DNA from: Candidatus Poribacteria bacterium
Lineage (GTDB): Bacteria > Poribacteria > WGA-4E > PCPOR2b
Direction: 5' to 3'
Assembly (NCBI GenBank): GCA_022822785.1
Contig: JAJEAL010000144.1
Span: 1-64,000, forward strand
DNA: 64,000 nt
Shown: positions 59,769 through 64,000 of the stretch, one piece after another
Layout of the letters: each line of letters opens with the position of its first letter
Numbering within the stretch: position 1 is the first letter of the stretch
Position numbers and translations under genes: made by a program
The notes under the pieces: model-generated
Databases searched by the model: none
Told to the model about the DNA's origin: nothing
Seen by the model: only the letters and a program-made list of their open reading frames with translations

Positions 59769-62186
59769 CTATTTCAGGATTGCCATCTTGCGCATGGAGA
59801 CATAATCACCAGCTTTCAGCACATAGAAATAAACACCGCTGGCAGCCCGTTCTCCCGATTGGGTACGTCCATCCCAGTGGATCGCTTTATCCTTAGTGAC
59901 ATACCGCCCACGGTTCTGTATACCGATATGCAATGTCCGTACCAACTGACCGGAGACATTGTAGATTTCCATCGATACAGGGGCATTTTCTGCGAGTTCA
60001 TAAGGGATCCAAACGTCCGGATTGAACGGATTGGGGTAACTTTGGAGCAGCTGAGTCCGCATTGGAGCAGCAGCGGTATCTGGTGGACTGAATACAGGGG
60101 TAATACCGTTGGGGTCAATGCTAGGGGTGCCCATAATGCCAATCGTATCGACAGGCACAACGGCATAAAAGTAGCGGGTGTCCTGCGGATCGAAAAGACC
60201 GCTGTCCGCATCGATATCTTGAAAAATTGTTGTATCCTCGAAGTGTGTATCGGTCGCGTTGACCCATCCGACAATGTTGATGTCACCATTGGGGATGCCA
60301 TCCCCATTCCGGTCTGCGGCGTTCAGCACTTCGGCAGCAGTCTGGAATGGCTGCGGGTCATCAGTTTCGACGGACGAGGTATATCGCTTTCGGACGATAG
60401 CGACCTCACGGATATCGCTTAAATCTTCGAGCTCCCATTGCACACGGACACTCGTCTCCCTCTCTTGTGAGGCGATAGGCGTCGAAAGGGCGCCAGCGGG
60501 CGGACGACCTGCCATATAACTCACAGCACCGCCAAAATAGTCACCGCCGGGGATAACCACCTGCTCGACATCGGGACGCAGATTGATTAGGATGAGCGTA
60601 ATCTTCTGAATATCGCCCCCGAAATCGTTGAATGTGATTTGGCCCTCTTGAGAACGCTGGTAGGTGAACGCCTCTCGGATTTCGTGGGTGCCGTCCCGTT
60701 TTTCAACGATAAACCTTGCCCCCCAACCACGCAAGCCAAAGACGTCGAGTCGATCTAATTCGTTCTGAATTTCAGCCCGGTCTGTGATGCCGAGTGGACT
60801 CATGTCGATTGGGGCGATGTCGGCGCCATCGACCTTGACCGCAAATTCGGGCATTACGACGCCGGGGGTCGGTTCAAAAACAATATAGCGTGACGAGAAC
60901 GGTTCCGGCATCGCCTCTGAATCCCAATCAACGCGGACAGGATAGGTGTTATGCACATCGCTCGGATGAATGAGAACGGGCGGGAAACGGTGTCCATTGA
61001 GGTAGTGCTGTCCGTCATCACGGTCATGCGTAAAGTAGTTCCACTCGGTAAAGGTCTTAAAGGCTTCGACTAGGGTTGTGCCGTGGTTGGTAAAGACATC
61101 CAGAAAGTTGCCGAATTCGCGGTAAGAGCCCTCCGTTGCATCCCCATAAAACTGGCGGACAATATCGACATCGAATCGTTCCGTCATGTAAAACACCCAG
61201 ATCACCGCCGCATATTCGTGCAAACCGACAAGACTGTCGAGCGCGATGTCAGGCTGATCCAAAAAGATACCAAGCTGTCTGGGGTAATAGTCGTAGGCAT
61301 CGGTCTCGCCGATCTCGTCGGGATCGGGAATATCATCGCGATCATCAATCAGTCCACCGTCGTATACTTTTGACTCAATCCATGTCGCTGACGCTTCCAT
61401 GAACCAACGGGGCATTCGTGCGTTGTAGGCGAAGTGAATCCCGTGCATAAATTCGTGTGCAGTAGTTGTTTCCATGAAACGGTTGCCCTCTAACTTGCCG
61501 AAATAGTCGTACAGACGGGAATTTATCGCAAAATAGGGACCGAAGGTCACGACGGTCGGTCGTATCCGTCCATGATACCAGTTGGTCGTTGTAAAGCCGA
61601 GCGCCGGAAACTGAAACAGGTACACATCATATTTATGATTGCCACCGTTGTACGCGTCCCAAAAATCGTCATAAGGCTTTTTGAACCCCATCAGATTGAC
61701 CTCGACATGGTACGATTTCTCGTGTGCTTCAGCACACAGATCAACGTAGTCCGGTACACCGTTCAGCGGATTGATATCTTCGAGCGGCGGTGCATGTGGA
61801 CCGACGGTGGTGTAATGGAATCGGAAGTGGGCGGTGTCAAACTTCTTTGGCAGCTTGACATCACCGTAGGGGCTGCCGGGCTGTCCCGGACGGAGGAAAA
61901 TCCCTTGAAACTCACGCTGATAGACCGCTGGCAGATAATCCCAGTTTTGTGCAAGGGTGTTGAAGGTGTCCGTAAAACACTTCTCAATTTCGCTGGCGGC
62001 ATAGCTCGACTTGGGGTTGACATATTTTCGGGCGGTGCGGATGGCGCTATGCAGCCCTGGATCGGGTAGACGTGCATCGACAATGACAGGTGTGGTAGCG
62101 AAAATTCCAAGGATTAATGATAAGGCTAGGAAAAATTTCAAATGGTTCACGCACATTCCTCTAAATCGCGTTATTTTGGAGTGCAT
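59769..62186 (-). CDS. Secreted zinc metalloprotease with FlgD-type C-terminal domain
   Basis: An 805-residue exported protein. A signal peptide (hydrophobic run FFLALSLILGIFATTPVIV) leads to a peptidase-like domain with TTAHEFMHGIHFAY (HExxH) and PRWFMEASATWIES (E as possible third ligand), about 245-275. A beta-rich middle follows. The C-terminal 90 residues (YPNPFNPDVWIPYELAEN, WDGRTQSGERAASGVYFY) match the FlgD Ig-like domain often used as a type IX-like sorting or surface anchor region. It resembles MXAN_6640-type surface proteases. The substrate is unknown. Confidence 0.82.
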   Translation of the reverse strand: MHSKITRFRGMCVNHLKFFLALSLILGIFATTPVIVDARLPDPGLHSAIRTARKYVNPKSSYAASEIEKCFTDTFNTLAQNWDYLPAVYQREFQGIFLRPGQPGSPYGDVKLPKKFDTAHFRFHYTTVGPHAPPLEDINPLNGVPDYVDLCAEAHEKSYHVEVNLMGFKKPYDDFWDAYNGGNHKYDVYLFQFPALGFTTTNWYHGRIRPTVVTFGPYFAINSRLYDYFGKLEGNRFMETTTAHEFMHGIHFAYNARMPRWFMEASATWIESKVYDGGLIDDRDDIPDPDEIGETDAYDYYPRQLGIFLDQPDIALDSLVGLHEYAAVIWVFYMTERFDVDIVRQFYGDATEGSYREFGNFLDVFTNHGTTLVEAFKTFTEWNYFTHDRDDGQHYLNGHRFPPVLIHPSDVHNTYPVRVDWDSEAMPEPFSSRYIVFEPTPGVVMPEFAVKVDGADIAPIDMSPLGITDRAEIQNELDRLDVFGLRGWGARFIVEKRDGTHEIREAFTYQRSQEGQITFNDFGGDIQKITLILINLRPDVEQVVIPGGDYFGGAVSYMAGRPPAGALSTPIASQERETSVRVQWELEDLSDIREVAIVRKRYTSSVETDDPQPFQTAAEVLNAADRNGDGIPNGDINIVGWVNATDTHFEDTTIFQDIDADSGLFDPQDTRYFYAVVPVDTIGIMGTPSIDPNGITPVFSPPDTAAAPMRTQLLQSYPNPFNPDVWIPYELAENAPVSMEIYNVSGQLVRTLHIGIQNRGRYVTKDKAIHWDGRTQSGERAASGVYFYVLKAGDYVSMRKMAILK

Positions 62187-62217
62187 CGATCGTATTGAGA
62201 CAGGTTATCTATGGGCA

Positions 62218-62247
62218 ATGATAACATCTAGCCTCTCTTTTTGTCAA
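62218..62247 (-). promoter_or_regulatory. Sigma-70 promoter of the protease-lipoprotein-uppS unit
   Basis: On the minus strand TTGACA (62247-62242), an 18-bp spacer, then TATCAT (62223-62218), about 30 bp before the protease start. Confidence 0.75.
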
Positions 62248-62480
62248 CAACTTTGGGGGATAGGTTTTCGCTTTTAGCCATCCACCTTCTGTGCTATAAT
62301 GAGCGTCATCAATTTATTATTTTCGGGAGGGAAAGTGCGCTAATACAAGGCACTAGACTCTATAGACGCCTTGCACATTTAGGGTCAAAAAAGATAGATG
62401 GTTTGTACAACGTAGGGCAACCATCCTAGTTCATTGAAAACACCTAGAAATGGTTCTTACCGGAGGTTACTCCTGAACAA

Positions 62481-63218
62481 TTACGGGATGAATGTCTCAA
62501 GGATGGGAGGCGGTTGGTTATCCCCCAAAAGGGCGAGCGCAGCTGAGATAATCTGATGATGCAGAGTGGGGTTGTTCGGCTCACCAAGTGGGTAGCCGAA
62601 ACCGTACGGCACCGCAAGCGCTCGGGGTGGCTTAACCTGCTCAGTGATATACGGAACCAGCGTAATTGAAACCGTTGAGATGTCCGCTGCCTCGATTGCG
62701 CGTTGGATCAGTCCAACGGACTGATTGCATAGCGGTCAGACAGGGGTCAGAAAGGCGACATGGACGCCATCTGCCTTAAGATGCGCCGCAACTTCTGGGG
62801 CGGTGCGTTTGATTAACCGTCCCGGAGCGGGTTGCGATCCCATAAAGCTGAAATGCCGGTCGTTGAGCTCCCCGATTTTGCCCGTCCGCTCTAGCTCACG
62901 AAAACGATCGAGTGGAAACACCAGATTCCGATCCGCAAAGCTGGCGGTCTGATCGTATACAGTGCTGCTGTGTGCAGTCGTCAACGCTTGGACATCAACG
63001 GTGTTAGGGATTTCACGATAGGAGTAATCGCCGCTCATGAAATGATCATCAAACGGCTCTTGAGACGCTGTATGTAAACCGGCGGTGGTGACCAAGGCAA
63101 CTCGGCATTCCGTTAGTGGTCGCTGCAGCGGGGTATGCGGCGTTGTGTCGTAACGTCGATAGCGATAGAGTTTCATGAAGATGCGAAGTTTTAAGTCGAG
63201 TTCATCAACGGCTGGCAT
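62481..63218 (-). CDS. GrdB-family selenoprotein with in-frame UGA (UxxC motif)
   Basis: A 245-residue protein if UGA at 62738-62736 is read as selenocysteine (residue 161). Before it: TTAGLHTASQEPFDD and VFPLDRFRELERTGKIGELN. Across it: VAFLTPVUPLCNQSVGLIQR. After it: IEAADISTVSITLVPYITEQ, VKPPRALAVPYGFGYPLGEP and a TAA at 62483-62481. The continuation matches the glycine/sarcosine/betaine reductase selenoprotein B-like family. A SECIS-like hairpin lies 10 nt after the UGA. It is a redox protein of unknown substrate. GAGGGA lies before the ATG at 63218, and TTGACA-18-TATTAA upstream is its probable promoter. Confidence 0.85.
62707..62725 (-). promoter_or_regulatory. SECIS-like hairpin
   Basis: On the minus-strand mRNA, 10 nt after the UGA, a perfect 8-bp stem AUCAGUCC / GGACUGAU closes a GUU loop (62725-62707). 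Position and loop G fit bacterial SECIS elements, which lie within the coding region just 3' of the UGA. An alternative stem, GUUGGA / UCCAAC around CUGA, lies six bases later. Confidence 0.65.
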
Positions 63219-63257
63219 GCTGGGTTCCCTCTCTGCATTGTTTAAGTCGTACGCAGA

Positions 63258-63287
63258 TTAATATTTCAGCTATATTCTTCATGTCAA
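63258..63287 (-). promoter_or_regulatory. Probable promoter of the selenoprotein gene
   Basis: On the minus strand TTGACA (63287-63282), an 18-bp spacer, then TATTAA (63263-63258), about 40 bp upstream of the ATG. Confidence 0.5.
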
Positions 63288-63368
63288 TTATAGCATAAAT
63301 TGAGTTGGTGTCAAATGAGCGCCTTCTCACCTGAACACGAACTATTTCCGAAACCGAGGTTTTCGATA

Positions 63369-64000
63369 ATGGCAGATTCAAAACGAATTGAGCACCGTGA
63401 GCTCGTTCAATTTTTCAAAGAGACGTTGATGGCTGTTGGTGCGCCTTCGCAGGTCGCAGAGGTGGAAGCGGAGATTGGTGCCGAGGTTGACCTCTGCGGC
63501 GTCCATTCACACGGCGTTAGGCTCCTGCCGGTGATGGTTGGAAACATACAAACTGGATTGACGAACCCGGATCCGCAAGTAACCATCCTTGCTGAACAAC
63601 CGGCGTCAGTACTCGCCGAGACAGACCGGGGCATCGGGCGTTATATCTCTGCCGTCGCGATGGATATGGCAGTGGAACGTGCCGAAACCTACGGCATCGG
63701 TGCGGTTACCATCCGGGGCGTGGCGCACTGGGGCCGAGGTTATAGCTATGCAGCGCGGGCAGCGCGAGCGGGTATGGTCGGTTTGGCATTCACAAACGCT
63801 ATAATCAACTTTCCGGCGTGGGGCACTTCCGCGGCATCTCTGGGAAATAATCCGATGGCTATCGGTATACCCGTAGAGGATGGGGGTGAGCCTGCGGTGC
63901 TAGACCTCGCCATGACGCAGACCGCTATCGGCCGTGTTCGGGAAGCGGCAGAGGCGGGGCAGCGCGTTCCGCTGGGTTGGGGATTAGATGCAGCGGGACA
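63369..64000 (+). CDS. Ldh-family oxidoreductase (malate/L-lactate dehydrogenase-like), partial
   Basis: About 210 N-terminal residues before the window ends. It is an NAD(P)-dependent Ldh_2 family enzyme: HRELVQFFKETLMAVGAP, VDLCGVHSHGVRLLPVMV, IRGVAHWGRGYSYAARAA and AWGTSAASLGNNPMAIGI. The family reduces 2-oxoacids or cyclic imino acids. The ATG at 63369 is used; an in-frame ATG at 63315 would add 18 residues and has no better ribosome site. It diverges from the selenoprotein gene. Confidence 0.88.
   Translation, partial: MADSKRIEHRELVQFFKETLMAVGAPSQVAEVEAEIGAEVDLCGVHSHGVRLLPVMVGNIQTGLTNPDPQVTILAEQPASVLAETDRGIGRYISAVAMDMAVERAETYGIGAVTIRGVAHWGRGYSYAARAARAGMVGLAFTNAIINFPAWGTSAASLGNNPMAIGIPVEDGGEPAVLDLAMTQTAIGRVREAAEAGQRVPLGWGLDAAG

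Follow-up and report, generated by a model that had tools for sequence, protein, structure and literature searches.

In the window (the whole stretch of 64,000 nucleotides that was analysed), a gene for a predicted orphan PrdB-like selenoprotein lies on the minus strand at 62481..63218. It starts with ATG at 63218, ends with TAA at 62483-62481 and would encode 245 residues when an in-frame UGA is read as selenocysteine (Sec). This UGA (62736..62738, minus strand) is predicted to specify Sec161 of a UxxC motif, UPLC, with Cys164 as the resolving cysteine, an assignment based on the TGA/Cys pattern in homologues. The conventional ORF (table 11) has 160 residues. Readthrough adds 84 residues past the UGA and gives the motif TPVUPLCNQSVGLIQR. 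The first-pass annotation of this DNA had placed the gene correctly at 62481-63218 and left its strand, which is minus, unstated. When the sequence was re-read, the in-frame TGA at 62738-62736, the 84 further residues and TPVUPLC were all as claimed, and standard gene calling did end at 160 residues. Standard callers thus cut the PrdB-like protein at a point where the active site is lost. The gene is present in one copy in the genome.

Downstream of the UGA, a putative SECIS apical stem-loop, AUCAGUCC-GUU-GGACUGAU, occupies 62707..62725 on the minus strand. It has 8 bp and a 3-nt loop with G first, and the distance from UGA to loop is 18 nt. In DNA letters it reads ATCAGTCC-GTT-GGACTGAT (62725-62707), the same perfect 8-bp hairpin, starting 10 nt after the UGA, that had been reported before. 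Upstream of the gene, a Shine-Dalgarno-like GAGAGGG (63227..63233, minus strand) was read from the sequence 8 nt 5' of the ATG. A candidate sigma-70-type promoter, TTGACA-16-TATAAT (63287..63314, minus strand), lies 68 nt upstream of the ATG; it agrees at 12 of 12 positions and has TG before the -10 element, and is a consensus match only. An Rfam scan of 60000-64000 gave no match.

Neighbourhood of the gene

An Ldh_2-family oxidoreductase gene (63300..64000, plus strand) is divergent to the PrdB-like gene and continues beyond the end of the window. In the four genomes of the genus for which the region was fetched, the PrdB-like gene stands alone beside this divergent oxidoreductase, which has 373 residues in one of them (L054). 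We considered Ldh_2 as a partner and rejected it: all four of the genus genomes that were looked at retain the gene, yet nothing ties the two functions together. No prd genes were found near the PrdB-like gene. A neighbour of the PrdB-like gene in sister species (L055:3265-5616) encodes a secreted protein that has a TIG domain and a sorting tail for type IX secretion.

The arrangement in the related family f3 is different. There, 36 of 41 genomes encode a Gfo/Idh/MocA dehydrogenase less than 50 bp upstream of the PrdB-like gene and in the same orientation, and the two genes are a probable operon. In three more f3 genomes, from two genera, the Gfo/Idh/MocA and PrdB-like genes are separated by a Type ISP restriction-modification gene. 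This gene was assigned by Pfam in one case (L062:3211-6828) and by clustering in the other two (L064:7191-10490 and L072:3564-6767). The Gfo/Idh/MocA orthologue is absent from the window's own genus (best match 31%), so the dehydrogenase is not an obligate partner.

The window contains one other long extension past a TGA, 437 codons within 15502-13157 on the minus strand, which served as a negative control for recoding. It was rejected as a recoding candidate. An aldo/keto reductase gene ends there in TGA and is followed, in the same frame, by a gene of the neutral ceramidase family, so that two separate genes share one frame.

Reading of the in-frame UGA

To assess the coding sense after the TGA, the protein was scored with the PrdB model, TIGR04483. 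The 160-residue ORF scored 99.9 bits and the readthrough product 153 bits, in agreement with the coding sense first claimed for the downstream frame. A PrdB-like homologue was present in 72 of the 118 relatives searched. Among homologues from the order, all that span the site retain the TGA, at identities of 45-90%. One broken homologue match (genome G005) is explained by a stretch of Ns in that assembly. Downstream of the TGA, pairs within the genus differ by 0.07-0.12 at codon positions 1+2 versus 0.36-0.45 at position 3; beyond the TAA, all three codon positions differ by about 0.7-0.8 between close relatives. Residues E176, T182, P198, R199, G208 and G212, all downstream of the UGA, are invariant.

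Cysteine stands at the aligned UGA site in four homologues: one from a distant genome (L071) and three from alphaproteobacteria (L074, L075 and L077, the last from Roseomonas). A contig search with Cys codons at the Sec position returned, on account of those codons, only two Cys homologues. Judged from the aligned sequences, the four Cys-for-Sec homologues pass the classical Sec/Cys pair test. Separately, the homologue in genome G077 (L068, near 7188) has two in-frame TGAs. The first lies in LPID*LAEL, at a position where relatives carry R or something else; it may reflect an error or mark a second site of recoding.

The hairpin was compared with the bacterial SECIS (bSECIS) rules as quoted from PMC13188914: a loop of 3-9 nt, a stem of 4-16 bp, G in the first two loop bases, a UGA-to-loop distance of 16-37 nt and an MFE of at most -7.5. 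The hairpin has values of 3 nt, 8 bp, GUU, 18 nt and -14.1 kcal/mol (49-nt stretch), all within these published constraints; a check of this kind had been proposed in the first-pass annotation. We also scanned the 2268 TGAs of the window on both strands and in any frame. Two were followed by an 8-bp Watson-Crick stem with the spacing and the loop G, and both matches are the PrdB-like hairpin itself, once counted from a TGA 11 nt upstream. The hairpin is beyond chance.

Compared with dinucleotide shuffles, the hairpin fold alone was only moderately better (z -1.81). In an alignment of 23 distinct sequences, 96.7% of cells were paired, and both sides had changed at three hairpin pairs (UA to CG, GC to AU and UA to AU). 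The covariation score was higher than that of 500 of 500 shuffles and of every slid version. Because the protein is highly conserved at the hairpin, protein-preserving synonymous shuffles were added as a comparison. Their mean z was -1.32 at the UGA, compared with -0.77 to +0.63 in other windows of the gene; this signal sits in the set of sequences, and individual sequences are not all significant. The best fold of three sequences (L025, L030 and L066) differs from the PrdB-like hairpin. The comparative evidence is the strong part of the case for the hairpin, as against the isolated fold.

The genome has the machinery for Sec insertion. On contig C141, selA, selB and tRNA-Sec (anticodon UCA) lie in a row. 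The selB model match scored 366.6 bits against a cut-off of 242. While selB, tRNA-Sec and selD were found by models, selA was assigned by reading the sequence of the ORF that immediately precedes selB. Of 59 order genomes, 55 have a tRNA-Sec. Genome G040 has two tRNA-Sec matches (C225 and C127), both at contig ends, which are probably one gene assembled twice. The selD of the window's own genome (L021, G000:C25, minus strand, TGA upstream of 2349) also contains a UGA, in CGUAAK, and is itself a predicted selenoprotein. Its apical stem, CAGUCC-AGUU-GGACUG, is nearly identical to the PrdB-like SECIS.

Taken together, the conserved TGA, the SECIS, the conservation of the downstream coding sequence, the sel machinery and the Cys homologues aligned at U161 uphold the selenoprotein reading. 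With high confidence, the gene would encode a Sec-containing, stand-alone PrdB-like protein of 245 residues. Three other readings of the UGA were weighed. Were it a genuine stop, the protein would end at 160 residues, and what follows in frame would be a remnant, decaying or untranslated. Standard calling does give a 160-residue ORF, and readthrough of UGA at Sec codons tends to be incomplete. Yet protein-type conservation extends past the UGA over 45-90% identity, with invariant residues downstream, and the Cys in four homologues and the compensatory SECIS changes also argue against a stop, which we regard as very improbable. A sequencing or assembly error for TGC or TGT is a thought raised by a single draft genome, and the first-pass annotation had named it, together with a lack of selB or selC, as what would speak against its reading. 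Instead, the genome has selA, selB, selC and selD, and the identical TGA occurs in dozens of independent genomes, single-contig assemblies among them, by which the error is already refuted and its probability is negligible. Readthrough in the PrdB-like gene would also be seen if the genome-wide code had changed and UGA meant Trp or another residue. However, UGA is the commonest terminator among window ORFs of at least 150 residues (19 of 51), tRNA-Sec (UCA) and SelB are present, and at the UGA position homologues show Cys rather than Trp. A code change has next to no probability.

Family placement and candidate chemistry

The first-pass annotation had assigned the protein to the GrdB family. 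This holds at the level of the Pfam superfamily, where the GRDB model (PF07355), with a gathering score of 22, gave 49.5 bits. The finer label is PrdB-like (TIGR04483, 153 bits) rather than GrdB. The GrdB, GrdF and GrdH models gave 50-69 bits. Scores of 50 bits for TIGR01917 (cut-off 602) and 55.9 for TIGR01918 (cut-off 65.45) do not place it in GrdB proper, and its motif is UPLCNQS, not the UxxCxxC of GrdB proper. The GRDB model found no second family member in the order genomes searched. A PDB sequence search returned one chance match only. An AlphaFold model built from three sequences was too poor to use (pLDDT 49.6), and a Foldseek search with it returned no match at E < 0.001.

Could the protein be the true PrdB of a D-proline reductase, with PrdA diverged or lost in an assembly gap? 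PrdB is its best family match, identity to clostridial PrdB is 36-37%, and the genome is a draft of 147 contigs. The score of 153 bits, however, is about half of the equivalog cut-off of 300, and three genuine PrdBs scored 310-424. The PrdA model found nothing in any of 30 order genomes, the window's own and single-contig ones included; in the positive control, Peptoclostridium, it detected PrdA at 556 bits and GrdE-type paralogues at 85 and 77 bits. In the tree, canonical PrdB and GrdB-type proteins group together, apart from the PrdB-like clade, a placement to be read with caution owing to long branches and a midpoint root only. Furthermore, prdB adjoins prdA in Enterococcus, Terrisporobacter and Ligilactobacillus, and no such neighbour occurs here. 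A true PrdB is therefore very unlikely. GrdA was not detected in eight order genomes, the window's own included (positive control, 263 bits). With PrdA/GrdE-type proteins and GrdA not found in these searches, the matches do not add up to a two-subunit proline or glycine reductase. By sequence, the protein is classified as an orphan PrdB-like selenoenzyme, the equivalog of neither PrdB nor GrdB.

We propose that SelB with its Sec-tRNA binds to the SECIS hairpin and that Sec is inserted at UGA161 to form the UPLC (UxxC) active site, a step with strong support. The product would be a stand-alone relative of PrdB that works with neither GrdA nor pyruvoyl subunits of the PrdA/GrdE type. Going by the chemistry of PrdB and GrdB and by the UxxC motif, the Sec161 selenolate would most likely attack a small electrophilic or oxidised substrate. 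Cys164 would then resolve the intermediate to a selenenylsulfide, which a donor of the thioredoxin type would reduce again. The reaction would be a reduction driven by thiols and distinct from the full D-proline or glycine reductase reaction, presumably on a substrate that is neither D-proline nor glycine. In family f3, the PrdB-like protein probably acts in one pathway with the Gfo/Idh/MocA dehydrogenase encoded just upstream.

The substrate-reductase chemistry, taken alone, is argued by analogy and is moderately favoured. One rival shares the Sec reading and differs in chemistry only: instead of a PrdB-like substrate reductase, the protein would be a general redox protein of thiol-disulfide or peroxide type. 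The UxxC motif and the lack of partner subunits in our searches fit such a protein, which is possible though on the unlikely side: residues conserved throughout the PrdB/GrdB-type domain suggest a dedicated substrate pocket, and the f3 neighbour is a metabolic Gfo/Idh/MocA dehydrogenase. The stand-alone form offers a tractable single-gene target in the search for a new Sec-dependent reaction.

Comparison with known systems

PrdB is the Sec subunit of D-proline reductase (Kabisch et al. 1999, as cited in PMC13188914). Like PrdB (TIGR04483), the present protein has a single domain of about 240 residues and a UGA-encoded Sec in UxxC at the aligned place, and PrdB is its best model match, over residues 28-231. 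Unlike PrdB, it stays at 153 of 300 bits, has the motif UPLCNQS in place of UGTCHR and is without a prdA, prdC, prdD operon.

GrdB, GrdF and GrdH, the selenoprotein B of glycine, sarcosine and betaine reductases (PF07355, TIGR01917/TIGR01918), have the same Pfam domain with an aligned Sec; the earlier statement that the family uses Sec at this place is borne out in both these proteins and PrdB. They differ in their length of about 430 residues, an extra N-terminal region, UxxCxxC, and GrdE-type and GrdA/GrdC partners. The PrdB-like protein matches only their C-terminal part, and GrdE-type and GrdA genes were not found where searched. Also stand-alone and PrdB-like are alphaproteobacterial proteins annotated as 'glycine/sarcosine/betaine reductase selenoprotein B family protein' (Rhizobiales, Chelatococcus, Roseomonas); the Roseomonas record has no prd genes annotated nearby. 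In these, Cys (NCPVCHQ) replaces Sec, and identity to the present protein is about 32%.

Literature searches that combined selenoproteins with a suspected phylum turned up nothing on the PrdB-like gene. Reports of PrdB-type UxxC selenoproteins from marine metagenomes go back to 2005, and these proteins are among the commonest in the sea according to PMC1088965 and PMC2398784, so the kind is already known, and the orphan context is the noteworthy part. The Sargasso Sea metagenome yielded 42 PrdB-type selenoprotein genes (PMC1088965), and Global Ocean Sampling yielded 235 PrdB-type selenoproteins and 110 Cys homologues (PMC2398784). As described there, these proteins share pfam07355, UxxC and a Sec with a bacterial SECIS with the present one; they are read-level predictions named by homology. 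The marine set probably includes the present type. We lean slightly towards the view that the orphan PrdB-like proteins form a separate Sec-dependent family without a pyruvoyl/GrdA partner, with a substrate of their own and, in some lineages, alongside a Gfo/Idh/MocA dehydrogenase, and that the ocean 'PrdB' counts may represent such an enzyme instead of proline reductase. Labels of proline reductase given by homology can cover orphans that lack the catalytic partner, and PrdB counts in metagenomes therefore need not mean proline fermentation.
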